Source: Rikenella microfusus DSM 15922
Lineage (GTDB): Bacteria > Bacteroidota > Bacteroidia > Bacteroidales > Rikenellaceae
Assembly (NCBI RefSeq): GCF_000427365.1
Contig: NZ_KE386488.1
Location: forward strand, 1,833,882-1,897,881
DNA length: 64,000 nt
Direction: 5' to 3'
Every line of letters begins with the position of its first letter. Position 1 is the first letter of the stretch. A program made the translations under genes and the position numbers. Below, in pieces: positions 6,731-61,289 of this stretch. The notes beneath the pieces were generated by a model. The model ran no database searches and was not told the DNA's origin. It worked only from the letters and a program-made list of their open reading frames with translations.

Positions 6731-6902
6731 GGTAACTATATACGACGTTACCCTATATTATGCACACTTGATTCTCAGTATATTTCGGTCCTCGCCCACC
6801 TCCTTAAGCAGAGCAAAGCCCCGGTCCCCCGTGCCGAGCTGCACCGCAGGGCCGGTTGGGAAGGTCATTGCCTGATTGCGGGTAAAGTCGTATATAGTTA
6901 CC
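6731..6902. mobile_element. R1 element copy A (MITE-like) with perfect 8-bp target duplication
   Basis: 172 bp. The left end is GGTAACTATATACGACGTTA and the right end is the inverted counterpart finishing CGTATATAGTTACC. It is flanked on both sides by AAATAATA (6723-6730 and 6903-6910), the expected footprint of transposition. The interior shares CTCAGTATATTTCGG and CGCAGGGCCGGTTGGGAAG with the copies at 19827 and 52077. There is no transposase; the short frame inside (6758-6964) is not conserved between copies. Confidence 0.85.
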
Positions 6903-7188: not shown

Positions 7189-7220
7189 TTTGCACGAACC
7201 CGGGAAAAAGTGTAATATTG
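7189..7220 (+). promoter_or_regulatory. putative promoter of the 7.3-19.4 kb operon
   Basis: TTTG (7189-7192), 20 nt, then TAATATTG (7213-7220), close to the Bacteroidota TTTG-N19-21-TAnnTTTG arrangement. The leader to the first start codon at 7303 would be about 75 nt. I see no other comparable promoter inside the operon. Confidence 0.55.
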
Positions 7221-7302
7221 TAAGTTTCATTACGGTTCGTATTATACGCTACCGGGATGAAATACGACCCGAAAAACCACTGCCTAAACTACCAACATCG
7301 AT

Positions 7303-9162
7303 ATGAAATCCTCAATATTGCGTTCCTGCCTTGCCGGCGGAATCATCCTGACCTGCGGTATGGGAAGCGGGGAAATGATCCCCGCGGCGCATGCCGCGCT
7401 TGCAGGAACGTCGCAGACGGCTCCCGCCGCCGCGGAGAACGCCCCGCTGTTCACGACCGACATAACGGTCCTTTCCGACGGTCGTATCGTCACCTCTAAT
7501 AAAGGCAACAAATCCGTGCGGATTTACGCTCCGGACAACCTCGCTGCGCCCGTCAAGGAATGGATTTTCGAACAGACGCCCACCGGCGTAGCCGCCGGGA
7601 CGTCGGGCGGCAGCGAAAAAATATACGTGACCACGTTCGAGAAACGAGGCACCCTCGACGTTATCGACCTGACTTCGGGTCGCGTGGAACGCTCCATCCC
7701 GGTCGGATCGGGAGCCACCTCGCCGCTCGTGTCGCAGGACGGGACGAAAGTTTACGTGCTCAACCAGTTCGCCAATACCGTAGCCGAAGTCGATCCCGAG
7801 GGCGGCGTCGTGCTCCGTACCGTGCAGGTATTGCGCGAGCCGAAAGGAGCCGTCGTGTCCAAAGACGGGAAATACCTTTTCGTAACCAATTTCCTGCCGG
7901 CCCAGCGGGCCGACCTGGACTATGTGGCCGCCGACGTCTCCGTGATCGACCTGGGGAGTTTCGAGAAGATCAAGGACATCAAGCTGGCCAACGGAAGCAA
8001 CGCGCTGCGCGGGATCGCGCTGAGTCCCGACGGGAAATACGTGCTCATTTCGCATAATATGGGCCGTTTCGCCGTGCCCACCTCGCAGTTGCAGCAGGGC
8101 TGGATGAACACCAGCGCCCTGAGCGTCGTGGACGCCGAAAAACTCACCTTCGAAGGAGGTATCGTACTGGACGAACCGGAACACGGGGCGGCCGGCATCT
8201 GGGACATCAAAAGCGTGGGCGACAAAGTTTATGTGACTCACTCCGGGACGCACGACCTCAGCGTGATCGACTATCCGGCCATGGCGGCCAAACTCCGGTC
8301 CTATACCGGCACCAAAGAGCAGCTCTCGTACGACCTGCGTTTCATGTACGGTATCCGCGAACGCGTGAAACTCACCGGCAACGGCCCGCGGAAAATGGCC
8401 GTATCGAAAGACGGTAAGCAACTTTACATTCCGACCTACTTTTCCGACACGCTCAACGTGTTCGACCTCTCCGGCAATACGGTGGGAGCGGCCGTCGCCC
8501 AGGTCGAGAACCGCAAGGAGACCGACGTGCAGGCCGGCGAACGGATTTTCAACGACGCCGCATACTGTTTCCAGAACTGGCAGTCCTGCAACGGCTGCCA
8601 TCCCGGCGACGCCCGCACCGACGGCATGAACTGGGACCTGATGAACGACGGGATCGGGAATCCCAAGAACTGCAAAAGCCTGTTGTATTCGCATTTCACG
8701 CCTCCCTGCATGATTTCCGGCATTCGGGCCGACGCCGCGATCGCCGACCGGAAAGGGTTTACGCACATCCAGTTCTACAACATCCCCGAAGAGATGGCCC
8801 TGAAAGTGGACGCCTATGTGAAAAGTCTGAAAGCGGTTCCGAGTCCTTACCTGGTGGGCGGCCAGCTTTCCGAAAAAGCCAAACAGGGGAAAAAGGTGTA
8901 TGAAAAGCTCAAATGCGACGAATGCCATAACGGCGAATATTACACCGACATGCAGATGCACCGTATCGGCGAGGATATCGAGTTCGAGAAAGGCTGGGAC
9001 ACGCCGACCCTGCGCGAAGTGTGGCGTACGGCTCCCTACCTGTTCGACGGCCGCGCCGCGACGATGAAGGAGGTCTTCGAGGTGCACCGGCACGGTATCG
9101 AAGACAAGAAAGTGAGCGCCAAGGACATCGACGCGCTGGTGGAATATGTCAATTCATTGTAG
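7303..9162 (+). CDS. secreted beta-propeller / diheme cytochrome c protein
   Basis: 619 residues. After an export signal (residues 1 to about 31) comes a YncE/YVTN-type beta-propeller (about 40-395) with recurring SPDGKYV-, SKDGKYL- and SKDGKQLY-like blade motifs. The C-terminal domain has two c-type haem sites, CNGCH (429-433) and CDECH (538-542), in a setting like bacterial diheme cytochrome c peroxidases/MauG (the late motif APYLFDGRAATMKEVFE is typical of that family). It probably acts in the periplasm or on the surface in electron transfer or oxidation. It is the first gene of a co-directional nine-gene locus. Haem attachment would need a maturase such as the CcsBA fusion at 58.6 kb. The substrate is unknown. 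Confidence 0.85.
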   Translation: MKSSILRSCLAGGIILTCGMGSGEMIPAAHAALAGTSQTAPAAAENAPLFTTDITVLSDGRIVTSNKGNKSVRIYAPDNLAAPVKEWIFEQTPTGVAAGTSGGSEKIYVTTFEKRGTLDVIDLTSGRVERSIPVGSGATSPLVSQDGTKVYVLNQFANTVAEVDPEGGVVLRTVQVLREPKGAVVSKDGKYLFVTNFLPAQRADLDYVAADVSVIDLGSFEKIKDIKLANGSNALRGIALSPDGKYVLISHNMGRFAVPTSQLQQGWMNTSALSVVDAEKLTFEGGIVLDEPEHGAAGIWDIKSVGDKVYVTHSGTHDLSVIDYPAMAAKLRSYTGTKEQLSYDLRFMYGIRERVKLTGNGPRKMAVSKDGKQLYIPTYFSDTLNVFDLSGNTVGAAVAQVENRKETDVQAGERIFNDAAYCFQNWQSCNGCHPGDARTDGMNWDLMNDGIGNPKNCKSLLYSHFTPPCMISGIRADAAIADRKGFTHIQFYNIPEEMALKVDAYVKSLKAVPSPYLVGGQLSEKAKQGKKVYEKLKCDECHNGEYYTDMQMHRIGEDIEFEKGWDTPTLREVWRTAPYLFDGRAATMKEVFEVHRHGIEDKKVSAKDIDALVEYVNSL

Positions 9163-9175
9163 ATCCAGGGAGGGT

Positions 9176-10354
9176 ATGGGATTCCGCATAATTTATAACA
9201 TAGACAAAGTCTGGTTCCGGGATTTCGGCGAAATGGTCGAGGAGATGCTCGACAAACTTACCGGGACGACTTCCGGACAAGGTATCGTGCCGTTGCGGCT
9301 GGTTTTTTTCGGAAATCCGGACAACAACGGCCAATATATGGAACACCGGGCCTGGCTGCTGGACCTGATCCGGAAACGGTGCGAGCGGTTCGGATGGCGG
9401 ATGCCGCTGGTAAGCTACGTGGCGCAGAAATCGCTGGATTCGGGTCTGGTGATGGAATCGCAGTGCGTCCCGCGCGAGAACGGCAGCCTCGTTCAGGAAA
9501 AAATATCGGCGGACGGAGTGCGTTATTTCACGGTCGAGACGCCGGAAGGCAAACGGCTCTTTACCGAAGGGATACTGCCCGCATCGATCGACGCTCCTAT
9601 TCTGGAACAGTCGAACGAAGTGCTCGGCAAACTGGGCGCCGTGCTCGACGCCGAAGGGATGGACATCAACACCATCGTCCGCCAGTGGAACTATATCGAA
9701 CGGATCACGTGCGTGCCGGAAGGCTGTAACCAGCATTACCAGGACTTCAACGACGCGCGGTCCCATTTCTACGCCCGTACCGAATGGAAAGGAGGCTATC
9801 CGGCGGCTACCGGGATCGGCACCTCGCACGGCGGGATCATGGTCGAGGTGGACGCCGTGGCGCTGCGGTGCCGCAAGTGCGCCGCGGTGGCGCTGGACAA
9901 CTCCCTGCAAGTGGCCGCGCACGATTATTCGCAGAACGTGCTGATCGGCGTGGCCGACAAGATATTCCGGCACAAAACCACCCCCAAGTTCGAACGCGCC
10001 AAAGCCGTGGTGAGTCCCGAATCGGGCCTTCAGGTCTATATTTCCGGGACGGCCGCCATCCGCGGCGAAGCCTCGCTCACCGGCGTGGGCATCGAACAGC
10101 AGACCGTCATCACGCTCGAAAACATCGAATACCTGATTTCCCGGCAGAACCTGCGCAAACATGGCGTCAAGGCGGAAAAAACGCCGGAAATACAAATATT
10201 TCGCGTATATTTGAAAGCCGAGAACCTGTTGGAACCGGCACGGAAAATCATCTGCGAACGGTATCCGGCGGTAAAGGCCCTGTACGTACTGACCGACGTG
10301 TGCCGCGACGAGCTGCTGATCGAGATCGAGGGAGTGGCGTTCACGGCCGAATGA
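9176..10354 (+). CDS. RidA/chorismatase-fold protein (FkbO/Hyg5-like), function unknown
   Basis: 392 residues from the ATG at 9176, which follows the previous stop by 13 nt behind a purine-rich ccagggaggg. There is no export signal, so it is probably cytoplasmic. An N-terminal LVFFGNPDNNGQYMEHR region and a C-terminal YISGTAAIRGEASLTG segment followed by a Q-rich helix resemble the YjgF/RidA-like domain pair of FkbO/Hyg5 chorismatases. In those enzymes the corresponding segment reads GTASIxGH, so the last residue differs here (E for H). Two CxxC-like pairs (CRKC near residue 235 and others) are not typical. Chorismate hydrolysis is therefore not assured. The family call is from motif memory only. 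Confidence 0.5.
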   Translation: MGFRIIYNIDKVWFRDFGEMVEEMLDKLTGTTSGQGIVPLRLVFFGNPDNNGQYMEHRAWLLDLIRKRCERFGWRMPLVSYVAQKSLDSGLVMESQCVPRENGSLVQEKISADGVRYFTVETPEGKRLFTEGILPASIDAPILEQSNEVLGKLGAVLDAEGMDINTIVRQWNYIERITCVPEGCNQHYQDFNDARSHFYARTEWKGGYPAATGIGTSHGGIMVEVDAVALRCRKCAAVALDNSLQVAAHDYSQNVLIGVADKIFRHKTTPKFERAKAVVSPESGLQVYISGTAAIRGEASLTGVGIEQQTVITLENIEYLISRQNLRKHGVKAEKTPEIQIFRVYLKAENLLEPARKIICERYPAVKALYVLTDVCRDELLIEIEGVAFTAE

Positions 10355-10405
10355 CGGGCCTCGTAAGACTGGAATGTAAAACCGAAAACATAAAAATCTA
10401 ACACC

Positions 10406-11122
10406 ATGAAAAACGTAAACTTTTTCAAAGCATCGATGATCGCGCTCTGCGGAGCCGCGCTGACCCTGACCTCCTGCGGCGGGTCCTGCCCGGCCGGCCA
10501 GAACGGCGACTCGACCGCTGTAAAAACCACCGACATGAAAAAAGCACCTTATCAGAAAAAGTACACTAACGCCGATTTCTACGACGCGCAGGGGAATTTC
10601 AAACAGGATGTGGCCAAAGAGGCTTTTCTGGACATGTTCGCTTACTACGGCGTGCCGTTCACCCCGCTGATGGAGAAAGACATCTGGTTCACCGACTTCG
10701 GGCTGGGCGACTTCGAGAACGTCGGGATGGGCGGTATCTTCTGGATCAACGATTCGACCTACGGTTATTTCGCGCACTCGATCTACCTGCTCCCCGGTCA
10801 GATGATTCCGGAACACAAACACGTCAAGACCGCCTTCCCGGCCAAACAGGAATCCTGGATGGTCGATAAGGGCTGGGTTTACAACTTCTCCGAAGTCGGC
10901 GAACCGACCGAAGGCGCCGATGCCCTGATTCCCGCATCGCAGAAAGAATCCACCGTGTCGAAGAATTACGTGAAACAGAATCTCGGCGAAGTACTGACCC
11001 TGAAAGCGCCGGAAAGCTGGCACTTCATGATGGCCGGCCCGGAAGGCGCGATCGTGTGGGAATTCGCCAACTACCACGATAACGCGGGACTGCGCTTCAC
11101 CAAACCCGGCGCGGCGTTGTAG
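10406..11122 (+). CDS. cupin-fold lipoprotein, D-lyxose-isomerase-like
   Basis: 238 residues. The signal sequence ends in LTSC (lipid-modified C24), placing it in the envelope. The cupin core has LLPGQMIPEHKH (H137, H139), a Glu around residue 149 and H206 in ESWHFMMAGPEGAIVWEFAN: a plausible 3-His/1-Glu metal site like that of YdaE-type D-lyxose isomerases. Those enzymes are cytoplasmic, so an extracytoplasmic anchored member is odd; another metal-dependent activity is possible. It sits 51 nt behind the RidA-like gene in the same direction. Confidence 0.6.
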   Translation: MKNVNFFKASMIALCGAALTLTSCGGSCPAGQNGDSTAVKTTDMKKAPYQKKYTNADFYDAQGNFKQDVAKEAFLDMFAYYGVPFTPLMEKDIWFTDFGLGDFENVGMGGIFWINDSTYGYFAHSIYLLPGQMIPEHKHVKTAFPAKQESWMVDKGWVYNFSEVGEPTEGADALIPASQKESTVSKNYVKQNLGEVLTLKAPESWHFMMAGPEGAIVWEFANYHDNAGLRFTKPGAAL

Positions 11123-11245
11123 CTCCCTTTGCCTCCGCGAGGGGGGGAGAGCGACAGCCTTGAGCGGCGGAGGCGGGAAAAGGGTTTCCTTCCTCCTCCG
11201 CTTTGTGACAAATCTATACTAACCCAAAACAGATAAGACCGAGTT

Positions 11246-11563
11246 ATGAGAACATTTGACCATGTCGGCATACCGACCTGCGAACCCAAACCGGGCGAAG
11301 TGTATAACGAAGGCATGAAAGTGTGGCTGACCGATTTCGCGAAAAGCCCGAACCGGATCGAATGGCTCCGTTTCGACAAGGATTCGTGGATGCCCCGACT
11401 GATTCAGAGCACCACCCATATGGCCTACCGGGTAACCGATCCGGAAGCCGAAATGAAAGGCAAGACCGTGCTCCTGCCGCCCACCGATTGCGGGGGAGGC
11501 AACTGGATCGCCTTCGTCGAAGAAGAGGGGATCGCCGTGGAGCTGATGTGGCAGGTCAAATAA
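11246..11563 (+). CDS. VOC (glyoxalase/bleomycin-resistance) superfamily protein
   Basis: 105 residues, one two-module VOC fold. It starts FDHVGIPT and ends GIAVELMW, both characteristic. Potential metal ligands H6, E39, H58 and E99 fall in the usual four-strand positions, so a metal-dependent isomerase, epimerase or lyase activity is plausible. It has no signal peptide. It lies 26 nt upstream of dhaK, suggesting translational linkage. The 123-nt gap before it contains G-rich short repeats but no gene. Confidence 0.75.
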   Translation: MRTFDHVGIPTCEPKPGEVYNEGMKVWLTDFAKSPNRIEWLRFDKDSWMPRLIQSTTHMAYRVTDPEAEMKGKTVLLPPTDCGGGNWIAFVEEEGIAVELMWQVK

Positions 11564-11589
11564 TAAATAACTCAACCAAATCGTTGATA

Positions 11590-12603
11590 ATGAAGATGAA
11601 CAAGTTTATCAATTCGACCGAAAACATAACTTCCGAACTGCTGGAAGGCTACACGATGGCCTTTTCCGAAACCGTGAAACTGGGCGCGGAAAACATCGTG
11701 GTACGTACCCGGCCCAAAGCCGAAGACAAGGTGGCGATCATCGCGTTCGGCGGTTCGGGCCACGAACCGGCCGTGAGCGGTTTCGTGGGCGAAGGGATGT
11801 TGGACGCATCGGTGGTGGGCGATATTTTCGCCGCTCCGGGGGCGCAGCGTCTGTTCCAGGCTCTCCAGATGTTCAAACGGGACGCAGGGATTTTGCTTCT
11901 CGTGCTGAACCACTCCGGCGATGTGATGAGCGGCAACATGGCCAAACAGCTCGCCGAACGCGCCGGGATCAAAGTGAAGTCGATCATGACCCACGACGAC
12001 ATCTCGGCCGGGCTGGACGCTCCGGACGAAGACCGCCGCGGACTGGCCGGAGCCATCCCGATGTACAAGATACTGGGCGCCGCCGCCGAACAGGGCAAAT
12101 CGCTGGACGAACTGATCGAAATCGGCGAACGCTTCAACAAGCAGATCGCGACCCTGGCCGTGGCCATGCGCGCCTGCACCCACCCGCAGAACGGCGCTAC
12201 GATCACCGAACTGCCCGAAGGGATGATGCAGATCGGCATGGGACAGCACGGCGAAGCCGGACAGGGAGGTAACGAACCGCTCGTATCGGCTGACGCCACC
12301 GCCGAATTCATGGTCGGCCAGCTGATGAAGAAACTCGACCTGAAGAGCGGCGACAACGTGTTGCTGTACATCAACGGCGTAGGTTCCACGACCCTGATGG
12401 AACAGTTCATCGTTTACCGCGCCGCCGCCAAAAAACTCGCCGCCGCCGGGATAACGGTAGCCGACGGATACGCCGGCGAACTGCTGACCGTCCAGGAACA
12501 GGCCGGGTTCCAGATGATCCTCGCCAAACTGGACGCAGACCACCTCGACCTGCTGAAAAACTACAAGGCCGACGCCCCGTACTGGAAACGTTTCGGCAAA
12601 TAA
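11590..12603 (+). CDS. dhaK: dihydroxyacetone kinase subunit DhaK homologue
   Basis: 337 residues. DhaK binds short-chain ketoses covalently through a histidine. Here GMGQHGEAG supplies H220, GGSGHEP supplies H58, and NHSGDVMSG supplies the base D111, all three catalytic positions known from E. coli DhaK. The partner dhaL follows 132 nt downstream. No DhaM phosphotransferase is seen, so the pair may use ATP or a DhaM encoded elsewhere. DhaK/DhaL relatives also phosphorylate erythrulose and other ketoses, so dihydroxyacetone is only one possible substrate. ATG 11590 was chosen; ATG 11596 is an alternative. Confidence 0.88.
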   Translation: MKMNKFINSTENITSELLEGYTMAFSETVKLGAENIVVRTRPKAEDKVAIIAFGGSGHEPAVSGFVGEGMLDASVVGDIFAAPGAQRLFQALQMFKRDAGILLLVLNHSGDVMSGNMAKQLAERAGIKVKSIMTHDDISAGLDAPDEDRRGLAGAIPMYKILGAAAEQGKSLDELIEIGERFNKQIATLAVAMRACTHPQNGATITELPEGMMQIGMGQHGEAGQGGNEPLVSADATAEFMVGQLMKKLDLKSGDNVLLYINGVGSTTLMEQFIVYRAAAKKLAAAGITVADGYAGELLTVQEQAGFQMILAKLDADHLDLLKNYKADAPYWKRFGK

Positions 12604-12735
12604 CGCGTCCGCCTCTGCTTTCGGACGGGCGGACACCCCTCCCAGGAAGACCCTCTGTTCCCTTGAGAAAGGGGGCAGGGGGCGTGGGGTTAAAGGAGCA
12701 TACCGAAAAAGAGACTAACACCTAACATAAACCAT

Positions 12736-13374
12736 ATGACCGGAAAATTGACTGTACCGGATTTTCAGAAAATGATCCAGAAAGCGTTGGCCGACGTGAC
12801 GGCACGTGCCGGGGAGTTCAGCGAGCTGGATGCCGTGATCGGCGACGGCGACCACGGCGAAGCGATCGTGACGGCGCTGGGCGCCATCGCGAAAGTTTCG
12901 AACGCCACCGATGCGGCCGGCAAGGATTTCAAAACCCTGCTCGGCGACATGGGATTCGGCGTGATGATGGAGACCAGCGGCTCCACCTCGACCCTGCTCG
13001 GCGGCCTGCTGCTCGGGATGAGCGACGGAGTGCCGGCCGGCGCTGCGGAACTCGACGCCGCACAGGTCAAGGCGATGTTCAAAGGCGGTCTGGAAGGCGT
13101 TCAGAAGAATACGAAAGCCATGCCGGGCGACAAGACCATGATGGACGCCCTCTACCCGGCGGTTACGGCCATGCAGGAGTGCGCTTCGGACGACGTGGAA
13201 ACCATACTGAAAGCCGGTGCCGACGCCGCGCAGAAAGGCGCGGAAGCCACCGTGCAGATGAAAGCCAACTTCGGCCGCGCCCGCAACTACGGCGAAAAAT
13301 CCGTAGGACATGCCGACAGCGGCGCATCGTCGTGGGCCTGCATGTTCGGCGCATTCGCAGCCGCGCTGGCCTGA
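12736..13374 (+). CDS. dhaL: dihydroxyacetone kinase subunit DhaL homologue
   Basis: 212 residues. This is the nucleotide-binding subunit that pairs with DhaK. The Mg-nucleotide site is LDAVIGDGDHG (D32, D37, D39, matching the Asp triad of E. coli DhaL). The family motifs GSTSTLLGGLLLGM (phosphate-binding helix region) and PGDKTMMDAL are present. The C-terminus GHADSGASSWACMFGAF is also typical. It lies between dhaK and the LsrF-like gene, all on one strand. Confidence 0.9.
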   Translation: MTGKLTVPDFQKMIQKALADVTARAGEFSELDAVIGDGDHGEAIVTALGAIAKVSNATDAAGKDFKTLLGDMGFGVMMETSGSTSTLLGGLLLGMSDGVPAGAAELDAAQVKAMFKGGLEGVQKNTKAMPGDKTMMDALYPAVTAMQECASDDVETILKAGADAAQKGAEATVQMKANFGRARNYGEKSVGHADSGASSWACMFGAFAAALA

Positions 13375-13508
13375 CCGTCCCGCCGGACGTTGCGGTTTCC
13401 GTCGCCCCCGGCCCCGTTCCGGTACTTTCCGCGCGTCCCGCGCGGGGCCTGCGCCGGAACGATAAATGAAAATAATCGAAATCAATCAGAATAAGAACAG
13501 AAGAAGAC

Positions 13509-14387
13509 ATGGCAGACATGGATGGGATCCTTGAAAACAAGGACAAAGACTACGGCATCGGGATTCCGGTGGCCAACCAGAACTATTTCGTAAAAGGGGC
13601 TGATAACCTCGACTGGGGGATGAAAGACCGCCTCTCGCGGATCTTCCGGCCCGGCACCGGCCGTACCGTGATGCTCGCTTTCGACCACGGGTATATCATG
13701 GGGCCGACCTCCGGCCTGGAACGCCTGGACCTGAACATCGTGCCGTTGATCCAGTACGCCGACTCGCTGATGTGCACCCGCGGCTCGCTGCGTTCGGTGG
13801 TGCCGCCGACCTATAACAAAGGTATCTGCCTGCGTTATTCGGCCGGGTCGTCGATCCTGACCGACCTGAACAACGAATGCGTGCTCGATCCGGTGGACGC
13901 CGTGCGCGTGAACGCTTCGGCGATGGCCGTGATGGTGGCCATGGGCAACGACAAATTCGAAGCCAAGACCATTGAAAACCTCGTCCGTACCGCAGACGCC
14001 GGATACAAATACGGCATTCCCACGATGGGCGTTACCGCCGTGGGCAAAGATATGGCCCGCGACTCCAAATACTTCGGCCTGGCTTCGCGCGTGTGCGCCG
14101 AAAACGGGGCCAATATCGTGAAGACCTACTACTGCGACGGCTTCGCCAAAGTGGTGAACGCCTGCCCGGTACCCATCGTGATCGCCGGCGGCAAGAAACT
14201 CGAAGAGAAAGAGGCCCTCGAACTCTGCTACAAAGCCATTAACGACGGGGCCATGGGCGTCGATATGGGCCGCAACGTGTTCCAGTCGGAAAATCCCGCC
14301 GCGATGATCCAGGCCGTGAGTGCTGTGGTACACGAAGGGCTGACCCCCGAACAGGGCTTCGAAATGTACAAAGACCTGTCGAAATAA
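13509..14387 (+). CDS. lsrF: LsrF-type class I aldolase/thiolase
   Basis: 292 residues, closely resembling E. coli LsrF throughout (shared stretches such as GIGIP, LDWGM, TVMLAFDHGY, VPIVIAGGKK and GVDMGRN). LsrF is a class I enzyme of the DhnA/DeoC superfamily that cleaves phosphorylated 3-hydroxy-2,4-pentadione, the last step of AI-2 degradation. The Schiff-base lysine is present as K205 in NIVKTYYCD. No LsrK, LsrR or Lsr transporter is nearby; DhaK/DhaL take the place of a kinase. The real substrate could be AI-2-like or another phosphorylated ketose. Confidence 0.85.
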   Translation: MADMDGILENKDKDYGIGIPVANQNYFVKGADNLDWGMKDRLSRIFRPGTGRTVMLAFDHGYIMGPTSGLERLDLNIVPLIQYADSLMCTRGSLRSVVPPTYNKGICLRYSAGSSILTDLNNECVLDPVDAVRVNASAMAVMVAMGNDKFEAKTIENLVRTADAGYKYGIPTMGVTAVGKDMARDSKYFGLASRVCAENGANIVKTYYCDGFAKVVNACPVPIVIAGGKKLEEKEALELCYKAINDGAMGVDMGRNVFQSENPAAMIQAVSAVVHEGLTPEQGFEMYKDLSK

Positions 14388-14401
14388 TTCCGCATCGAGT
14401 C

Positions 14402-15343
14402 ATGAAACGCTTCATACATAAACTGGCTTCCGCCGCTGCGGTGGGAACCGCGGCGTTCGCGATGGTTTCGTGCGGCGGTAAAACGGCTGCTCCGCAGGAG
14501 AAGATGCTCATCGCCGGTTCGTTCTGGGACACCATCGCCGTGGTGAACCGTTCGGCCGGAGACGTGATCGAGTGGAAATACGGCCTGCCCGCAGGATCGG
14601 AATGCAACAGCGTCGAGATCGTGCCGGGCGGCGACGTGCTGCTCTCCTACAAGAAAGGGGCGCGCGTGATCAAGCGCGACGCGGCGGGCACCGTCGTGTG
14701 GGACTATACCGACGTGGCCGATACCGCCGAATTGCAGACCGCGACGCGGCTGCCCGACGGGGGCTACCTGCTGGCCATCTGCGGTACCCCGGCCCGCATC
14801 GTCGAACTGGACTCCACCGGAACCCAGGTGCGCAAAGAGGTGCGTTACGACCTGGGCATCCGGCCCGCGCATGCTCAGTTCCGCCGTGTGGCGAAGGCTG
14901 CGAACGGAAACTACCTGATTCCGATTATTTCGGCCGGCAAGGTGCTTGAAATCAAGGACGATTCGACCCTTGTCGCGGAATACGGCGTCGGCGGAACCCC
15001 GTTCTCGGTTCAGGAACTGCCCGGCGGCAACCTTTTCGTCGCGTTGGGCGACGGCCACAGCGCCGTCGAGATCGAACGGGCCGGCGGCGCTCTTGTGCAG
15101 CGGATCGATTCGATTCCCGGCGTCCCGATGCACTTTGTCGCTTATTCGGAACGTTTGGCTAACGGAAATACGCTGATCTCCAACTGGCAGGGACACCTGC
15201 CGGCGGAACAGCAGACCGCCGCCCAACTGGTCGAGATCGATCCGGCCGGTGCCGTAGTCTGGTCTTACGACGGACGCGGCGGCCGCCCTGTGAAAGGGGG
15301 AGGCGTGGACTTCGTTTCGGCTTTTTATCCCTTTACGGAATAA
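14402..15343 (+). CDS. beta-propeller lipoprotein (PQQ-like/arylsulfotransferase-like repeats)
   Basis: 313 residues. The lipoprotein signal ends in MVSC (C24). Blade-like repeats of the form (I/V)EWKYGLP, VVWDYTDV and VVWSYDGRG, with DGGYLLAI and GNTLISNW motifs, indicate a beta-propeller related to PQQ-repeat and arylsulfotransferase N-terminal propellers. No catalytic residues could be assigned, so it may be a binding or scaffold protein. It starts 14 nt after the LsrF-like stop and ends 25 nt before the giant gene, so the three are probably translated from one message. Confidence 0.7.
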   Translation: MKRFIHKLASAAAVGTAAFAMVSCGGKTAAPQEKMLIAGSFWDTIAVVNRSAGDVIEWKYGLPAGSECNSVEIVPGGDVLLSYKKGARVIKRDAAGTVVWDYTDVADTAELQTATRLPDGGYLLAICGTPARIVELDSTGTQVRKEVRYDLGIRPAHAQFRRVAKAANGNYLIPIISAGKVLEIKDDSTLVAEYGVGGTPFSVQELPGGNLFVALGDGHSAVEIERAGGALVQRIDSIPGVPMHFVAYSERLANGNTLISNWQGHLPAEQQTAAQLVEIDPAGAVVWSYDGRGGRPVKGGGVDFVSAFYPFTE

Positions 15344-15368
15344 CAGCATACTAACACCAAACAAATAG

Positions 15369-18300
15369 ATGATCAAGAGAACAGTTTTCACAGCAAGCCT
15401 GGCTCTGGTGATGGCCGCTGCGGTGCCCGTTACGGCATCCGCCGCGTTGTCCGTTCCGGTCGCCGCTGCGCCCGCCAAGAAAAAGGCGCAGCAGACCTGG
15501 CTCCAGCAGGCTTTGGCGGCCAAAGAGAAATTGGCGGCCGATTCGCCGAACGGGTTGCCGTACGTTTCGACCGAATACCGGCGCGGGACGGCTCCCGGCA
15601 AAGTCTCCATCGACCTGACCGGCCTCAAGGAGATCTCGTTGGTAACGTGGGCCACGCCCGACGGTACGGATTACGACCACGCCGTATGGGCCGACGCCAA
15701 GTTTACCAAAAAGGACGGTACCGTGGTATGGATCGGAGATATGAAACCCAAGGTGAAACGGATCGAAGGCAACTGGACCAGTACCGACAAGAACCTGGCC
15801 GGCAATACGTTGCAGATCCGGGACACCAAGTACGACCACGGTCTGGTCGCCCATGCCAACAGTCTGCTCACGTATGAACTGAACGGCGAATACACCCGTT
15901 TCGACTCCGAAATCGGTATCGACGAAGGGTCGAGCGGCGGCAGCGCCATTTTCAAAGTCATGGTGACCAACGGTCGCAAAGAGGCCGAAGAGCTGATCAA
16001 GGCATGTCCGGAAGTTCAGGCCAAACTCGGCACGTTTATCGGCGCCCCGATCTCGGACTGGCTGACTTCACCCGGAACTTCGCTCGAACAGGCCGCCGCG
16101 ACCAAAATCGTCAGCCAGTTGAGCAAACCGGAATATTTCAACGCCAAGATCAAGGAGCTGGAAGCGAATCCCGATATGGAGAAACGCATCCTCGGCTATA
16201 TGGAACTCGCCGAACAAGCCGAAAAGGTGTTGAACCTCCAGGCCCAGCTCGAATGGCTCAACATTCCGGCCATCGGTAAGGCGCTGGCCGACATGAAGAC
16301 CATGAAAGGCTTCGACGGCCAGAAATACGATGCCGCTTACGCCGAACTCAAGACCCTGGCGGCGAACGGGTTCGACAACATCTACAAAGGCGACCAGGCT
16401 ACGATGGATGCCGCAGCCAAAGCACTGGCCCTCAAGCGGGAAATCCTGATGGCCAATCCGCTGCTGGACATCGACAAAATCGTTGTGACCAAGTACGACA
16501 TCGGCAAGAGCGCCCGTTACGTGATGGCTCCGGCTCTGGGTACCCAGCCCAACAACTGGTCGAACCAGTATTCGGCATCGCGTGGCGGTTTCCGCGCTTC
16601 GATCGTCGAGCTGTCCAACCTGCGCGGCGACAAGATCAAGGAACGCGTCATCTACAAGCCGAAAGGCGACGAACCCGTAACCGACGTGCACATGCACTGG
16701 GATGCCGACCGCATGCTGTTCACCTCCGTGGACTCGGCGCGTCGCTGGCACGTGTTCGAAATCAAGACCGACGGCACGGGGCTGAAAAACATTACGGCAG
16801 CCATTCCGGAACCGGATGTGGAGTTCGCCGACGGTGCTTATCTGCCCGACGGACGGCTGATCATCAATACCACGCTGGGGTATCACGGGGTGCCTTGCGT
16901 GGACGGGGCCGACGCGGTGGGCAACTTCGCGCTGTACGACCCGAAGACCGGTTACCTGCGCCGTCTGACCTTCGACCAGGACAACAACTGGAACCCGACC
17001 GTGATGAACAACGGCCGCGTGATGTACACCCGCTGGGAGTACACCGACCTGATCCACTACTTCTCGCGCTTCGTGATGCACATGAACCCGGACGGTACCG
17101 AGAACAAAAACCTCTACGGCAGCGGTTCGTGGTTCCCGAACTCGACGTTCGACATGCAACCGCTCCCCGACGGGTCGAGCGCGTTCGTCGGGATTATTTC
17201 CGGGCACCACGGCATCGCGCGGTCCGGACGCCTGATTATCTTCGACCCGGCCAAGTCGCGTAAGGAAGAGAAAGGCATGGTACAGGAAATCCCGTTCAGC
17301 ACCCGCCCGATCGAACCGATCATCAAGGACGAAATGGTGAACGGCGTATGGCCGCAGTTCCTCAAACCGCAGCCGCTGAGCAACAAGTATTTCCTGGTGA
17401 CCGCCAAGCTGACCCCGAACTCGTTGTGGGGCATCTATCTGGTGGACATCTACGATAACATGACCCTCGTGGTGGAAGGCGAAGGGGACGGTTACATCAA
17501 CGCGATTCCGGTAGTCAAGAAAGTGACTCCGCCGGTGATCCCCGATAAGGTCAACGAAGACAGCAAGGAGGCCACCGTCTTCATTCAGGATATTTACGAA
17601 GGCGAAGGTCTGCCGGGCGTACCGCGCGGCACCGTCAAGAAGCTCCGTATCCTGGCCTACGAGTACGCTTACCGCGACTCCCCCTCGAACCATGCCGCAC
17701 AGGGTATCCAGTCCGGGTGGGACATCAAGCGTCTGCTGGGCGAAGTGCCGGTGGAAGCCGACGGCTCGGCCATCTTCACCATCCCGGCCAATACCCCGAT
17801 CTCGCTCCAGCCGCTCGACTCGCTGGGCCGCGCCATCCAGTGGATGCGCAGCTGGTTCGTCGGTATGCCGGGCGAAACGGTATCCTGCGTGGGCTGCCAC
17901 GAAGACCAGAACCTGATGCCGATTCCGAAACGCACAATGGCATCGACCAAGAAACCCTCCAAGATCGAAGTGCCGGAGGGCGGCGTGCGTCCGTTCACGT
18001 TCGAGCTGGAGATCCAGCCGATCCTCGACCGGGCCTGCGTAGCCTGCCACAACAACGAGAACGCGGCCGGCGGCAAGAACTTTACCGGCGGGCGCTACAA
18101 CAACCTCTATAAGTTCAGCGACAGCTACCTCGATTTCCACCCCTATTTCTACCGCCAGGGGCCGGAAGCCGACATGTACGTGTTGGTGCCGTACGAATTC
18201 AACGCGTCGAACAGCGAAATGGTCCAGATGCTCGAAAACGGGCACCACGGCGTGAAGCTGACCGACAAGGAATGGAAAACCCTCTACAACTGGATCGACT

Positions 18301-19415
18301 TCAACGCTCCGTATCACAGCGGGTTCTTCAACGTTCGTGAACTGAAAGTCGGCCAGCACGGCTACAATCAGGTACAGCGTCGTAAGGAACTGATGGACAA
18401 ATACGCCAACGGCATGATGGTGGACTGGCAGAAAGAGATCCGCGATTATGCGGCGTATCTTGAAAAACAGCCCAAACCGGAACCCGTGATGCCGGAACCG
18501 CAGCCGGAACCGAAGGTCAAGAAGATCAAGGTGAAAGGCTGGCCGTTCTCGGTGGAAGAGGCGAAAGCCATGGTCGGCGAGGACAACAAGAAGAGCATCG
18601 AGATCGCTCCGGGTATCACGATGAACTTCGTGCGGATCCCGGCCGGCACGTTCGTCATGGGGGCCGACAAAGGCATCTCCGCTCCGAAGAGCAAAGTGAA
18701 GATCGAAAAGCCGTTCTGGATGGGCGAGATCGAAGTGAGCAACGAACAGTTCCGCGCGTTGTTCCCGGACCACGACAACCGTCTGATCGGCCAGCACTGG
18801 AAAGACCATACGGGTCCGAACTACCTGGTCAATGAAGACTGGCGTCCGGCGATCCGCGTCAGCTGGGAACAGGCTATGGAATACTGCCGCATGCTGAGCG
18901 AAAAGACCGGCCTGAAGATTACTCTGCCCAGCGAAGCGCAGTGGGAATGGGCCGCGCGTGCCGGTTCCGACGGCGATAACTGGTGGGGTGTCGATCCCGA
19001 CTTCTCGCCGTACGAAAACCTGGCCGACGTTCAGTTGCAGAAGATGGCCGTGAGCGGCGTCGATCCGCAGCCGATGAGTCCGAACAGCCGGATTTTCAAA
19101 TATTGGGACTTCCTGCCCAAGGACGCTTCGGTGGACGACGGCAATATGCTGCTCGGCAAGAGCGGTTCGTACAAACCGAACGCATGGGGGCTGTACGATA
19201 TGCAGGGTAATGTGGCCGAATGGACCCGGTCGGATTATCGCCCGTACCCGTACAGCGCTAAGGCGGACGTCGAGAATGTTTCGAATGCCGATAAAGTGGC
19301 TCGCGGCGGTTCGTGGATCGACCGTACCAAGAACGCCAGCCTGTCGGTACGCCGTCACTTCCTGCCGTGGCAGAAAGTGCGCAACGTGGGCTTCCGCGTG
19401 ATTATCGAAGAATAA
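15369..19415 (+). CDS. giant NPCBM - hydrazine-synthase-alpha-like - diheme - formylglycine-enzyme-like fusion
   Basis: 1348 residues with an N-terminal export signal (AAVPVTASA end). An NPCBM-like carbohydrate-binding domain spans about 75-205. A helical stretch (about 215-370) follows, then a WD/PD40-like propeller region resembling the middle domain of hydrazine synthase alpha. The two haem sites are CVGCH (839-843) and CVACH (890-894). A Pro/Glu/Lys linker near 1035-1060 leads to a SUMF1/formylglycine-generating-enzyme-type domain at about 1077-1346 (NFVRIPAGTFVMGAD, LPSEAQWEWAARAG, GNVAEWTRSDYRPYP, VARGGSWIDR, NVGFRVI). The Cys pair used by true formylglycine enzymes is not evident, so this part may be a binding fold. 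It is the last gene of the operon, followed by a strong terminator. Confidence 0.8.
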   Translation: MIKRTVFTASLALVMAAAVPVTASAALSVPVAAAPAKKKAQQTWLQQALAAKEKLAADSPNGLPYVSTEYRRGTAPGKVSIDLTGLKEISLVTWATPDGTDYDHAVWADAKFTKKDGTVVWIGDMKPKVKRIEGNWTSTDKNLAGNTLQIRDTKYDHGLVAHANSLLTYELNGEYTRFDSEIGIDEGSSGGSAIFKVMVTNGRKEAEELIKACPEVQAKLGTFIGAPISDWLTSPGTSLEQAAATKIVSQLSKPEYFNAKIKELEANPDMEKRILGYMELAEQAEKVLNLQAQLEWLNIPAIGKALADMKTMKGFDGQKYDAAYAELKTLAANGFDNIYKGDQATMDAAAKALALKREILMANPLLDIDKIVVTKYDIGKSARYVMAPALGTQPNNWSNQYSASRGGFRASIVELSNLRGDKIKERVIYKPKGDEPVTDVHMHWDADRMLFTSVDSARRWHVFEIKTDGTGLKNITAAIPEPDVEFADGAYLPDGRLIINTTLGYHGVPCVDGADAVGNFALYDPKTGYLRRLTFDQDNNWNPTVMNNGRVMYTRWEYTDLIHYFSRFVMHMNPDGTENKNLYGSGSWFPNSTFDMQPLPDGSSAFVGIISGHHGIARSGRLIIFDPAKSRKEEKGMVQEIPFSTRPIEPIIKDEMVNGVWPQFLKPQPLSNKYFLVTAKLTPNSLWGIYLVDIYDNMTLVVEGEGDGYINAIPVVKKVTPPVIPDKVNEDSKEATVFIQDIYEGEGLPGVPRGTVKKLRILAYEYAYRDSPSNHAAQGIQSGWDIKRLLGEVPVEADGSAIFTIPANTPISLQPLDSLGRAIQWMRSWFVGMPGETVSCVGCHEDQNLMPIPKRTMASTKKPSKIEVPEGGVRPFTFELEIQPILDRACVACHNNENAAGGKNFTGGRYNNLYKFSDSYLDFHPYFYRQGPEADMYVLVPYEFNASNSEMVQMLENGHHGVKLTDKEWKTLYNWIDFNAPYHSGFFNVRELKVGQHGYNQVQRRKELMDKYANGMMVDWQKEIRDYAAYLEKQPKPEPVMPEPQPEPKVKKIKVKGWPFSVEEAKAMVGEDNKKSIEIAPGITMNFVRIPAGTFVMGADKGISAPKSKVKIEKPFWMGEIEVSNEQFRALFPDHDNRLIGQHWKDHTGPNYLVNEDWRPAIRVSWEQAMEYCRMLSEKTGLKITLPSEAQWEWAARAGSDGDNWWGVDPDFSPYENLADVQLQKMAVSGVDPQPMSPNSRIFKYWDFLPKDASVDDGNMLLGKSGSYKPNAWGLYDMQGNVAEWTRSDYRPYPYSAKADVENVSNADKVARGGSWIDRTKNASLSVRRHFLPWQKVRNVGFRVIIEE

Positions 19416-19445
19416 ACGGTATTCGTCGGAAACCGTAAATCTGAG

Positions 19446-19485
19446 GCCCGGCCTTCCATCCTGAGATGGAAGGCCGGGCTTTTTT
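19446..19485 (+). terminator. intrinsic terminator of the large operon
   Basis: Perfect 15-bp stem (gcccggccttccatc, 19446-19460, with its complement, 19465-19479), tetraloop ctga, then six T residues. It lies 30 nt after the giant gene. I see no gene in 19486-19750. Confidence 0.92.
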
Positions 19486-57880: not shown

Positions 57881-58633
57881 ATGAAACTCGTCTCGGATAA
57901 AATCATCGTCAGCGGCCCGTGCAGCGCAGAGAACCGCGAACAGGTGCTGAAAACGGCGGAAGGGCTCGCCGCATGCGGAGTCACGGCATTCAGGGCCGGA
58001 CTCTGGAAGCCTCGCACCCGTCCCGGATGCTTCGAAGGGGTGGGGGCCGAAGGACTCGAATGGATGGCCGAAGCGAGGCGCACCTACGGCATGCGCATCG
58101 CCACCGAACTGAACAGCGCCCGCAACGCCGATCTGCTGCTGAAAGCGGGCATGGACATCGCGTGGATAGGGGCGCGCACCGCCACCAATCCTTTCGACGT
58201 GCAGGACATCGCCGACGCCCTGCGCGGGTGCCACATCGACGTATATATCAAAAACCCCGTGGCTCCCGATTCGGCCTTGTGGCTCGGCGCCATAGAGCGT
58301 ATGGAACGCGCCGGCATCAAAGGGCGCATCGTAGCCATCCACCGCGGATTCTGCGCCTGGGAGAAAGATATTTTCCGCAACAACCCGATCTGGAGCATCC
58401 CGCTTTGGCTCAAGGCGCAGCGGCCCGATATCCCGGTCGTCTGCGATCCCAGCCATATCTCCGGGCAGGCCAGGCTCGTACCCTACGTCTCCCGCATGGC
58501 CCTGTCGTTGGGATTCGACGGCCTGTTCATCGAGTCCCACTGCAATCCCGCCGCCGCGCTGAGCGACGCGGCGCAGCAGCTGACCCCCGAAGAGGTCGGC
58601 CATATGTTCCAGGACCTGAAACTGACAGAATAG
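57881..58633 (+). CDS. 3-deoxy-7-phosphoheptulonate (DAHP) synthase, short AroAII/KdsA-like class I form
   Basis: 250 residues. It condenses phosphoenolpyruvate and erythrose-4-phosphate at the entry of the shikimate pathway. Motifs are IIVSGPCSAEN, AGLWKPRTRPGCFEGVG, IKNPVAPDSALWLG and VVCDPSHISG. In many Bacteroidota a chorismate mutase domain is fused at the C-terminus; here the protein stops without it. ATG 57881 follows an A-rich leader; the longer upstream frame crosses the R1 copy. ccsBA begins 7 nt later, so they are likely co-transcribed. Confidence 0.88.
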   Translation: MKLVSDKIIVSGPCSAENREQVLKTAEGLAACGVTAFRAGLWKPRTRPGCFEGVGAEGLEWMAEARRTYGMRIATELNSARNADLLLKAGMDIAWIGARTATNPFDVQDIADALRGCHIDVYIKNPVAPDSALWLGAIERMERAGIKGRIVAIHRGFCAWEKDIFRNNPIWSIPLWLKAQRPDIPVVCDPSHISGQARLVPYVSRMALSLGFDGLFIESHCNPAAALSDAAQQLTPEEVGHMFQDLKLTE

Positions 58634-58640
58634 ACCGTAT

Positions 58641-61289
58641 ATGAAAAAAACGATCCGGATACTCGTCTCCTATCCCGCGATGGCCGTGATGCTCGTGCTT
58701 TATGCGGCGGCGATGGCCGCGGCCACTTTCGTGGAAAGCAAATACGGCACGCCGGCGGCCCGGCACTGGGTCTATGACAACTGGCTCTTTTACCTGCTCC
58801 AGGCGCTGCTGGTCGTGAATTTCGTCGGCGTCGCGGCCCGGCAGCGTCTCCTCCGACAGCGTAAATGGGCGACGCTGGTCTTTCATTACGCCTTTGCCGT
58901 GATCCTGCTGGGGGCGTTCGTTACGCACCTGACCGGCCGCGAAGGGATCATGCATATCCGGGAAGGGGAAAGCTCCGATGCGTTGCTCGACCCTGCGAAT
59001 CCGGCCGAGGTGCTCGAAACCCTGCCCTTCAGCGTCGAACTGACCGATTTCCGGCTGGTACGCTATCCGGGTTCGCACAGCCCCTCGTCGTTCGAAAGCG
59101 ACGTGGTGGTGCGGCGGGAAGGGTATCCCGACCGACGGGAGAATATCTATATGAACAACGTGCTCCATGTGGGGGCGTACCGGCTCTACCAGTCGAGCTA
59201 CGACCCCGACGAGCTGGGAACGGTGCTCTCGGTCAATCGCGACCGCACGGGCACGTTCATTACCTATTTCGGCTATGTCCTGTTGATGGGAGGGATGATC
59301 CTTTCGCTGTTCCATAAGCATTCCCGTTTCCGGACGCTCGCCCGGATGCTGGGGCGCAAATCGACGGCGGCCGCTGCGGCGCTGCTCCTGTTCGGCGGTT
59401 GGCAGGGGGCGGCGGCCCAGCAGCGGGTCGATACGCTGACCCTCTCCGAGTTGGAGGCCAATGCCCGGCGGCAAATGGAGCAGATCGAACGGGAACATGC
59501 CGAAGCCGCCCTGCGCGATGCGGAGTCCGAGTGGGAAGCCGCGGGGCTGCCGGCCGAAATGCCGGAGGGAGTGGAGCCGGAACCGTCGCAGCGGCGGAAG
59601 ATAGACCGCCGCCGGGAGAAAAAAATGGCCGGTTTGTACGCTGCCGAGACGGCTGTCAGTCCAGAGACCGCCGCCGCTTTCGGCCGGTTGATGGTGCAGA
59701 GCCGCGAAGGGCGTATCGAGCCGGTGGACACCTATGCGGCCAAGCTGCTGCGCAAGATATACCGGGGCGACAGGTACGAGGGGCTGAATCCCGACCAGGT
59801 GCTGATCGGCATCGTCACCCAGCCCCAGATATGGAGCCGCATCCCGATGATCGACGTGGGCAGCGAGGCGCTGCTCCGCAAGACGGGGATCGACGAAGAA
59901 CAGGCGGAGTCGGGCTGTCTGGCCTTTATCGACGTGCTGGACGACGAGGGGAACTATATCTTCGCCGACGAAGTGGAGGCGGTGTACGCCAAACCCGTGC
60001 GCGAACGGAACAAGTACGACAAGGAGCTGCTCAAGTTGGACGAAAAGATCAACATCATCAACGCGCTGTTCGCCGGGCAGATGCTGGCCATTTTCCCGCA
60101 CGACGGGACGCTGGACAACAACGACGCGTGGTACTCGCCGGGCGACGACCTGAGCGTGTTCGCCGGCCAGGATTCGATGTTCGTGAGCAAAATTTTCCCG
60201 TGGTTCGCCACCGAGTCCGTGAAATCGATCGAATCGGGCGACTGGAGCGTTCCGGTCGAAATCGCCGGGATGATCGCCACCTACCAGAACGCCAAAGCGA
60301 AAACTTACCACATCGACCGGGACCGGATCGAAGCCGAAATGCTTTATAACCGGCTGAATCTGTTCAAATGGGCCGGATTCTTTTACATGGGTTTCGGGCT
60401 GCTGCTGATCCTCGCCCTGATTTTCCGGATGGTCGATCCCTCGAAAGGGTGGCGGATCGCGGTCGGCGTGCTGACCGGCGTCATCGCGGTCGTTTTCCTC
60501 GGACAGACCTTCGGTGTCGGACTGCGTTGGTATATAGCCGGCCGGCCGCCGGTGTCGAACGCTTACGAGTCGATGATCTTCGTGGCGTGGGCCACGGCGG
60601 TCGCGGGGCTGGCTTTCGGGCGGCGGTCGCGGATGACCATGGCGCTGGCCGCATTCCTTTCGGGCGTGCTGATGTTCGTCTCGACACTGAACTGGATGGA
60701 TCCGGAGATCACGCCGCTGGTGCCGGTGCTCAAGTCGCCGTGGTTGCTGGTACACGTGGCCGCCATAACGGGCAGTTACGGCTTTTTCGGCATCGGATTC
60801 CTGTTGGGGCTGATCTCGCTGCTGATCATGGCCTGCAAGACGGCCCGCAACGCCGGACGGCTCGACGCGCAGATCCGCGAACTGACCGTCATCAACGAAA
60901 TGGCCCTGACGGTGGGGCTGGTGCTGCTTACCGCCGGGACGTTTCTCGGCGCCGTATGGGCCAACGAATCGTGGGGGCGTTACTGGGGCTGGGATCCGAA
61001 AGAGACGTGGGCGCTGATCACGATGATCGTCTATGCGTTCATCCTCCATGCCCGGTTCGTGCCGGCCCTGCGGCGCGGCGGAGATTATCTGTTCGGTCTG
61101 ATGACCGTCGTCGGACTGGGCGCGGTGCTGATGACCTTTTTCGGAGTGAACTATTACCTGAGCGGGATGCACTCCTACGGGGCCGATTCGGCGCCGCCCG
61201 CGCTGTACGCGATCTGGGTGGTGTACGGGATAGCGGCAGCGATCGCTGTGCTGGCCTGGAGAAAACGGAACCTGTCCGGGCGGGAGTAA
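58641..61289 (+). CDS. ccsA: cytochrome c maturation protein, ResB-CcsA (CcsBA) fusion
   Basis: 882 residues. System II haem exporter/ligase. The ResB-like half has N-terminal helices (to about 95), a helix near 210 and a large extracytoplasmic region. The CcsA half (about 575 to the end) has helices with conserved His (LLVHVAAITGSYG, AFILHARFVP) and the haem-presenting tryptophan-rich WGRYWGWDPKETWAL. It transports haem and joins it to CxxCH motifs outside the cytoplasm. It is the obvious candidate to mature the haem proteins at 7303 and 15369. Its pairing with a shikimate gene looks accidental. Confidence 0.93.
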   Translation: MKKTIRILVSYPAMAVMLVLYAAAMAAATFVESKYGTPAARHWVYDNWLFYLLQALLVVNFVGVAARQRLLRQRKWATLVFHYAFAVILLGAFVTHLTGREGIMHIREGESSDALLDPANPAEVLETLPFSVELTDFRLVRYPGSHSPSSFESDVVVRREGYPDRRENIYMNNVLHVGAYRLYQSSYDPDELGTVLSVNRDRTGTFITYFGYVLLMGGMILSLFHKHSRFRTLARMLGRKSTAAAAALLLFGGWQGAAAQQRVDTLTLSELEANARRQMEQIEREHAEAALRDAESEWEAAGLPAEMPEGVEPEPSQRRKIDRRREKKMAGLYAAETAVSPETAAAFGRLMVQSREGRIEPVDTYAAKLLRKIYRGDRYEGLNPDQVLIGIVTQPQIWSRIPMIDVGSEALLRKTGIDEEQAESGCLAFIDVLDDEGNYIFADEVEAVYAKPVRERNKYDKELLKLDEKINIINALFAGQMLAIFPHDGTLDNNDAWYSPGDDLSVFAGQDSMFVSKIFPWFATESVKSIESGDWSVPVEIAGMIATYQNAKAKTYHIDRDRIEAEMLYNRLNLFKWAGFFYMGFGLLLILALIFRMVDPSKGWRIAVGVLTGVIAVVFLGQTFGVGLRWYIAGRPPVSNAYESMIFVAWATAVAGLAFGRRSRMTMALAAFLSGVLMFVSTLNWMDPEITPLVPVLKSPWLLVHVAAITGSYGFFGIGFLLGLISLLIMACKTARNAGRLDAQIRELTVINEMALTVGLVLLTAGTFLGAVWANESWGRYWGWDPKETWALITMIVYAFILHARFVPALRRGGDYLFGLMTVVGLGAVLMTFFGVNYYLSGMHSYGADSAPPALYAIWVVYGIAAAIAVLAWRKRNLSGRE

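Follow-up and report, generated by a model that had tools for sequence, protein, structure and literature searches.

Gut Bacteroidales carry a conserved operon pairing exported hydrazine synthase-related haem proteins with cytoplasmic sugar-handling enzymes

Results

A nine-gene operon in Rikenella microfusus

We analysed a window of 64,000 nucleotides from Rikenella microfusus DSM 15922 (contig NZ_KE386488.1, positions 1,833,882 to 1,897,881 of the forward strand; positions below count from its first letter), whose genome assembly of 2.88 Mb in 2 contigs is 98.5% complete. Nine open reading frames (ORFs) on the plus strand, here called g1 to g9, span 7303-19415 with intergenic gaps of 13-134 nt (Table 1); the start codons adopted for g2 and g5 lie at 9176 and 11590. 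Sequence and predicted structure identify the two haem-motif proteins at the ends of this operon, g1 and g9, as homologues of hydrazine synthase (HZS), the signature enzyme with which anammox bacteria make hydrazine. Many gut Bacteroidales carry such a conserved operon, in which exported HZS-related haem proteins are paired with cytoplasmic sugar-handling enzymes.

A first-pass annotation of this DNA had already outlined the layout correctly as nine co-directional genes with short gaps. Four products appear exported, as it had proposed: g1 and g9 with two CxxCH motifs each, g3 and g8 as putative lipoproteins with lipoboxes (LTSC and MVSC, respectively) read by eye. The other five look cytoplasmic and belong to the families it had named, the VOC assignment of g4 being weak. 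Its statement that transporter, SusC/SusD pair and regulator are missing also stands, none being found within the operon span among the Pfam and NCBIfam family matches of the nine genes; the lack of a SusC/SusD pair sets the operon apart from a polysaccharide utilisation locus.

Table 1. Features of the operon and of associated genes in the window
Feature	Position	Strand	Evidence
Promoter-like TTTG-N20-TAATATTG	7189..7220	+	sequence; one of 2 forward matches in the window with at most 1 mismatch
g1, exported HZS beta-gamma-like di-haem protein	7303..9162	+	NF052342 8.6e-35, below its cut-off
g2, chorismatase (FkbO/Hyg5)-like	9176..10354	+	PF21168 1.5e-10; PDB 5ag3 1.4e-37, FkbO 4bps 3.3e-29
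g3, exported lipoprotein, D-lyxose/D-mannose-isomerase-like cupin	10406..11122	+	profile against 7nzo 2.6e-17, 2y0o 6.2e-13
g4, short VOC-like protein (weak)	11246..11563	+	best PDB match: profile against 3hdp, E 0.0035
g5, DhaK	11590..12603	+	PF02733 1.3e-94; PDB 3ct4 6.8e-62
g6, DhaL	12736..13374	+	PF02734 7.6e-38; PDB 2btd 1.8e-22
g7, LsrF (PRK08227), CoA-dependent thiolase family	13509..14387	+	NF006081 445.5 bits (cut-off 297); PDB 3gkf (E. coli) 2.1e-105
g8, Mal s 1-like propeller lipoprotein	14402..15343	+	PF22701 8.1e-43
g9, exported HZS alpha-like protein with NPCBM and FGE	15369..19415	+	PF18582 1.3e-36, PF08305 2.4e-26, PF03781 1.7e-40
Terminator hairpin, 18 pairs	19443..19482	+	longest of 12 terminator-like sites
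Short DAHP-synthase-like gene	57881..58633	+	one of three PF00793 matches in the genome; directly before CcsBA
CcsBA cytochrome c synthase	58641..61289	+	only Cytochrom_C_asm (PF01578) match in the source genome

The haem proteins are related to hydrazine synthase

To our knowledge, HZS was formerly thought to have no relatives. The first-pass annotation recognised no described system in this gene set, and our search of the open-licence PubMed Central literature likewise found no description of the operon; what the annotation missed was the relationship of g1 and g9 to HZS. The g1 product combines a seven-bladed propeller with a CCP/MauG-like part, which also matches the Pfam family CCP_MauG, and has CxxCH motifs at 8587-8601 and 8914-8928. 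Its sequence profile matches both the beta (5c2v_B, 8.8e-26) and the gamma subunit of HZS (5c2v_C, 1e-20) in PDB, and in a Foldseek search with its predicted structure 5c2v_B ranked first (6.1e-22, TM 0.84 by target), followed by a surface-layer propeller at 4.5e-19. Both CxxCH motifs are invariant in 20 aligned g1 sequences, as are two extra cysteines, Cys422 and Cys457, which may be disulfide-linked or provide an additional bond to haem.

The much longer g9 product contains an NPCBM domain (aa 120-203), an HZS_alpha domain above the Pfam cut-off (aa 754-845) and a C-terminal FGE domain (aa 1086-1345), with CxxCH motifs at 17886-17900 and 18036-18050; NPCBM and FGE, like the isomerase homology of g3, had been overlooked in the first pass. 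The HZS alpha subunit (5c2v_A) was the sole PDB match of the g9 core up to E 0.01 (2.8e-9), with both CxxCH motifs aligned, and it ranked first in the Foldseek search with the core model (1.8e-16 across 740 aligned columns, compared with 8.2e-6 for the next different protein). Both motifs are kept in all 28 g9-type proteins examined of the 83 found.

Thus all three parts of HzsABC (5C2V) have homologues in the operon, the alpha and gamma haem motifs align, and the set comprises four c-type haem motifs. Unlike in HzsABC, the beta and gamma parts are fused in g1, the alpha part in g9 has acquired NPCBM and FGE additions, and the operon carries cytoplasmic sugar-type enzymes. Curated HZS cut-offs are missed by a wide distance (120 of 1250 bits for beta-gamma, 34 of 800 for alpha). 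The differences extend to functional residues. Tyr591, given as the haem alpha-I ligand in the accessible part of a study of HZS (PMC12607021), lies four residues past the alpha-I CxxCH histidine, a position occupied by Asn in 21 of 21 aligned g9 copies. For the gamma subunit, the accessible part of a December 2025 survey singles out His144 and describes Cys165 as forming a third haem bond (PMC12758564); counted on the HMMER alignment, these positions correspond to Ile471 and Ala481 of g1. In the case of the bis-His haem alpha-II, whose distal ligand in HZS is His772, the second CxxCH of g9 aligns, and the invariant His at alignment positions 540 and 575 are candidate ligands in a region where the model is poor.

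The same survey reports distant HZS homologues and, in the part accessible, names no function for them; co-located homologues are placed in Planctomycetota, Desulfobacterota and a few others, and Bacteroidota are mentioned there for beta-gamma homologues only (PMC12758564). Its clades I-IV resemble our operon in that alpha-like and fused beta-gamma-like genes are co-located outside anammox bacteria and key HZS residues are lost. In clades I-III, as in CCP/MauG proteins, in which it is called important, a Trp takes the place of gamma-His144, and FG-GAP proteins are neighbours, whereas here the residue is Ile and the companions are the cupin, DhaKL and LsrF (PMC12758564).

When 395 genomes from the phylum were searched with the g1 profile (E 1e-30), 2 matched, both within the order of the window. 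The HZS_alpha domain is more widespread, being present in 17 of these genomes at E 0.001 and above the cut-off in 13. In the source genome itself, a second protein with this domain (L201 7300-9597, G000:C2; 765 aa, two CxxCH motifs, no FGE) is encoded about 430 kb from the operon, with no further homologue of an operon gene in the surrounding 19.5 kb. A more distant alpha and beta-gamma pair lies adjacent in another genome (L097 8158-12382, G567), without the remaining operon genes.

Conservation of the gene set

Related loci were collected by a scan with the g1 alignment, from which the best 80 of 194 relatives form the locus set. Their hosts are Rikenellaceae, Parabacteroides, Bacteroides, Tannerellaceae and similar bacteria, and some record titles name rectum or cecum samples; the closest seven loci, from Rikenella, Millionella and another member of Rikenellaceae, share 75-87% identity in g1. 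Gene counts were taken from the 58 loci that extend 9.9 kb or more past g1 on its downstream side. In these, g3 and g9 are each kept in 57, DhaK in 50, VOC in 49, g2 in 46 and CcsBA in 36; the lower numbers for DhaL (30), LsrF (23) and g8 (18) are partly due to many loci ending near these genes. The genes come in two orders, 1-2-3-4-5-6-7-8-9 (order A) and 1-2-3-9-CcsBA-4-5-6-7-8 (order B). The first-pass annotation had stated that its idea would fall if the exported and cytoplasmic halves did not co-occur in related genomes; the idea withstands this check, the two halves being one conserved unit in both gene orders. LsrF is present in 12 of 15 operon genomes searched whole, with two copies each in B. 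clarus and B. nordii.

A sample of 198 genomes of the order gives a similar picture. Relatives of g9 with at least 46% identity occur in 7 genomes; strong g3 matches (E < 1e-70) are limited to these 7, one further genome (G446) giving a weak match. LsrF exceeds its cut-off in 7 genomes, namely six operon genomes and G441, where the copy is interrupted by two stops; the cut-off is an imperfect guide, since the E. coli control was matched without reaching it. DhaK is found in 10 genomes, in six of them within the operon and in four elsewhere. The co-occurrence of LsrF with g9 has a Fisher P of 6e-10, which is only a guide because the genomes are related. In G405, which is 61% complete, g9 and g3 are present and no LsrF or DhaK was found; among the other variants, the operon is split over contigs in G481 and G581, lacks g2 at the locus in G417 and lacks g8 in G513. 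The sample and the locus set are not independent, G347, G481, G581 and G417 being the same records as L111, L129, L149 and L166.

Genes between the haem proteins

By sequence, g3 is a sugar-isomerase-like cupin, its activity being predicted. Like the D-lyxose/D-mannose isomerase cupins 7NZO and 2Y0O, which its profile matches, it has an aligned His/His/Glu/His set (His137, His139, Glu149 and His206), invariant in 23 copies, which we take to be the metal-site residues. It differs from them in being an exported lipoprotein, in being a strict partner of a haem protein and in falling below Pfam detection (none of 23 members matches a Pfam family at E 0.001). For g4, neither Pfam nor NCBIfam gave a match.

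The domain matches of g5 and g6 to dihydroxyacetone kinases and of g2 to the chorismatases FkbO/Hyg5 are clear, and none of the three reaches the NCBIfam cut-off for the corresponding function: g5 scores 289.7 of 406.25 bits (dhaK1), g6 124.4 of 138.3 (DhaL) and g2, with its Pfam N-domain above cut-off, 132.5 of 325 bits for the curated chorismatase subfamily. Their substrates may consequently differ from those of the named enzymes. The only Dak1 match in the source genome is g5, and the His of its GxGxHGE motif, presumably the active-site His, aligns with DhaK. In g7, K205 of the KTYY motif is aligned with E. coli LsrF and invariant in 9 aligned copies; we assume that it is the catalytic Lys.

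Transcription signals and neighbouring genes

The promoter motif and the strong terminator that the first-pass annotation placed at the two ends of the operon were both found. With at most 1 mismatch, TTTG-N19..21-TAnnTTTG, which we take to be a Bacteroidetes promoter consensus, is matched at 2 sites on the forward and 3 on the reverse strand of the whole window; the second forward match, at 57824, lies ahead of the DAHP-synthase-like/CcsBA pair. A scan for sigma-70-type promoters gave nothing above chance (5 found, 5.4 expected). The 12 terminator-like sites of the window are, as a set, not above shuffled sequence (mean 17.0).

Two intergenic stretches within the operon, before DhaL (12604-12735) and before LsrF (13375-13508), are unusually long and GC-rich, and no repeats common to both were found. 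A short element with inverted-repeat ends occurs as three pairs (6731-6902, 19827-19981 and 52077-52252), two of which flank the operon on either side; allowing 3 mismatches, its 22-base motif was found 7 times across the window against an expectation of 0, the seventh match standing singly at 25047.

CcsBA, likely to serve g1 and g9, was detected with the window's copy as query in 45 of the 99 loci scanned, a few of which are duplicates of one another; it lies inside the operon in Parabacteroides-type loci, and the copy in L110 combines ResB and Cytochrom_C_asm. In 54 of 76 loci, g1 is directly preceded by a gene for an IclR regulator. The DAHP-synthase-like gene is possibly linked to the system as well: together with CcsBA it directly follows g9 in four Bacteroides loci (L203, L205, L208 and L209), and in a fifth (L211) it follows g9 with no CcsBA match. 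Among these genes only that of L208 was checked against families.

Carbohydrate context

The NPCBM domain of g9, the g3 cupin and the neighbours of g9 paralogues point to carbohydrates. This theme is supported by the sugar-isomerase likeness of g3 and by paralogues of g9 that lie outside the operon beside SusC/SusD together with GH88 (L082, 7818-17198) or GH123 (L085, 3-16805). At the latter locus, a sulfatase and a GH2 protein are also present, and the SusC/D-like ORFs were read from sequence. Two other stand-alone g9 copies (L083, L093) show no neighbours of these kinds, judged by eye. Within operon loci, g8 is followed by a transporter (MFS and SSS, respectively) and GH130 in L206 (P. distasonis) and L215 (P. 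goldsteinii), and a GH92 gene lies between g8 and g9 in L086. GH130 and GH92 hint at mannose, but as they occur in two and one, respectively, of the loci examined, mannose is not claimed as the substrate. Behind the order-A operon of Bacteroides stercorirosoris (L208 4844-18721) lie enzymes for uronic-acid polysaccharides (GH88 twice, GH2, an alginate-lyase family member and PL8).

Discussion

The operon probably encodes an unusual sugar-oxidation pathway. Our preferred reading, to which we assign a probability of about 0.45, is that the nine genes form one system with an exported, haem-containing sugar-oxidising half and a cytoplasmic DhaKL/LsrF half. It draws directly on the gene content, the homologies, the conservation of the set and the frequent company of a cytochrome c synthase. 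In such a system, g1 and g9 would constitute an extracytoplasmic redox enzyme of the HZS fold with four c-type haems. The cupin lipoprotein g3, as a sugar isomerase, would supply the sugar to this enzyme, with the propeller lipoprotein g8 as a probable partner. The enzyme would oxidise the sugar, or a sugar-derived hydroxyketone, and pass the electrons to an extracytoplasmic acceptor. After import of the oxidised product, DhaKL would phosphorylate its hydroxymethyl-ketone end, and LsrF with coenzyme A (CoA) would cleave the phosphorylated product into dihydroxyacetone phosphate (DHAP) and an acyl-CoA; the VOC protein and g2 may act as an accessory isomerase or lyase. We infer complex formation, the direction of electron flow, the order of steps, the reaction, the substrate and the import alike. 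The idea of the first-pass annotation, extracytoplasmic oxidation or binding of a carbohydrate-like compound followed by intracellular cleavage, thus survives in its carbohydrate theme, through the cupin and the neighbours of g9 paralogues. Its haem proteins turn out to be of the HZS fold, and its aldol/thiol cleavage narrows to thiolysis by an LsrF-type enzyme, a sharper guess.

A more specific version may be considered, although we find it doubtful. LsrF acts on R-CO-CHOH-CO-CH2-OP, where R = CH3, and hydroxymethyl ketones are the substrates of DhaK-type kinases. Oxidation of a ketose at C4 would give a compound of this shape, which is why a C4-oxidation route is proposed: g3 would provide the ketose, oxidation at C4 would give the 2,4-diulose R-CO-CHOH-CO-CH2OH, DhaKL would phosphorylate C1, and LsrF would release DHAP and R-CO-CoA. 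In this route g2 has no place beyond that of a conceivable accessory.

Several observations weigh against the one-system reading. The roles of all operon members are predicted from homology and context. Mean pLDDT is 70 for g1 and 60 for the g9 core, the propellers being modelled fairly and the haem parts poorly, so that homology to the gamma part rests on sequence. DhaK is missing from 8 of the 58 long loci (L132, L137, L143, L145, L148, L150, L151 and L153), and in three of the 15 operon genomes searched whole (L137, L145 and L150) no LsrF was found anywhere in the genome; the exported half can evidently do without the cytoplasmic half. Missing at 12 of the 58 long loci, and with its family present in 28 of the 198 genomes, mostly outside the operon, g2 is neither essential nor specific. 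The operon span holds no transporter, neighbouring glycan enzymes vary between species, and the DAHP-synthase-like gene is left unexplained by the proposed route. Finally, a three-haem cytochrome c peroxidase (CCP) lies behind g8 in L080, which might just as well point to peroxide chemistry.

Among the alternatives, catabolism or quenching of autoinducer-2 (AI-2) would have LsrF cleave a phosphorylated derivative of AI-2; DhaKL would stand in for LsrK and the VOC protein or the cupin for LsrG, and the haem proteins would be accessories. By the curated cut-off g7 is a true LsrF, and the accessible part of a 2018 study describes a gut-associated Bacteroidetes lsrF homologue for which AI-2 quenching was suggested (PMC6084841). 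The E. coli Lsr operon (LsrK-LsrG-LsrF), which handles AI-2, likewise has an LsrF family member and the logic of a kinase plus a thiolase. However, the kinase here is DhaK/DhaL; LsrK, LsrB and an Lsr transporter (LsrACD) are absent from the family matches of the span, a genome-wide lsrK/lsrB search not having been made; the conserved haem proteins and the sugar-isomerase-like cupin are left unexplained; and there are genomes with the exported half alone. Since the intact LsrF genes of the 198-genome sample all lie in the operon, the lsrF gene described in the accessible part of the 2018 study is probably of the g7 type, and its interpretation as simple AI-2 quenching is weakened accordingly. 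Taken together, we regard this alternative as unlikely. It is also improbable that two unrelated modules share the locus for historical reasons, as the exported half standing alone in B. faecalis, B. bouchesdurhonensis and others and the loci lacking DhaK might suggest: the two halves occur together in two different gene orders, and LsrF is nearly confined to operon genomes.

The remaining alternatives concern the haem proteins themselves. In a peroxidase-type system, g1 and g9 would accept electrons and, like CCP, use them to reduce H2O2 or some other small oxidant, and the cytoplasmic genes would represent co-controlled metabolism. The CCP_MauG match of g1 and the CCP adjoining g8 fit this view, but such a CCP occurs in one locus only, the cupin and the NPCBM domain would have no explanation, and, with the key CCP/MauG Trp replaced by Ile471, a plain peroxidase is judged unlikely. 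We give little credence to a MauG-like maturation, in which the haem complex would install an oxidative cofactor or cross-link, for example in g3 or g8, and the protein so modified would be the working enzyme; it would account for the MauG-type similarity of g1 and for g3 always accompanying g9 (7 of 7 genomes), yet cupins of the lyxose-isomerase type are not known to carry a modified residue. Hydrazine synthesis, or the formation of another N-N bond, in a gut bacterium is the alternative that we discount almost entirely, even though all three HZS subunits have homologues. The proteins score far below the curated HZS cut-offs, and residues needed by HZS are altered (Tyr591 to Asn, gamma-His144 to Ile, gamma-Cys165 to Ala); g1-g9 as a hydrazine synthase is therefore rejected.

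On a more far-reaching reading, HZS-fold complexes might represent a wider class of extracytoplasmic haem oxidoreductases, whose gut members oxidise sugars that enter the C4-oxidation/DhaKL/LsrF route, a so far undescribed catabolic pathway. The anammox HZS would then be a specialised offshoot, and the lsrF of Bacteroidetes associated with gut colonisation would belong to this route and not to AI-2 quenching; we put this forward as a rather long extrapolation. What the data establish is that gut Bacteroidales have a conserved haem system of the HZS fold, linked to a catabolic module of the LsrF type. Cultured gut bacteria (Parabacteroides, Bacteroides) encode these HZS homologues within one compact, conserved operon, alongside defined cytoplasmic partners and often a cytochrome c synthase belonging to the system, which makes the wider chemistry of the HZS haem fold directly testable. 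At the same time, the operon offers a new home for the lsrF gene that has been associated with gut colonisation and read as AI-2 quenching.

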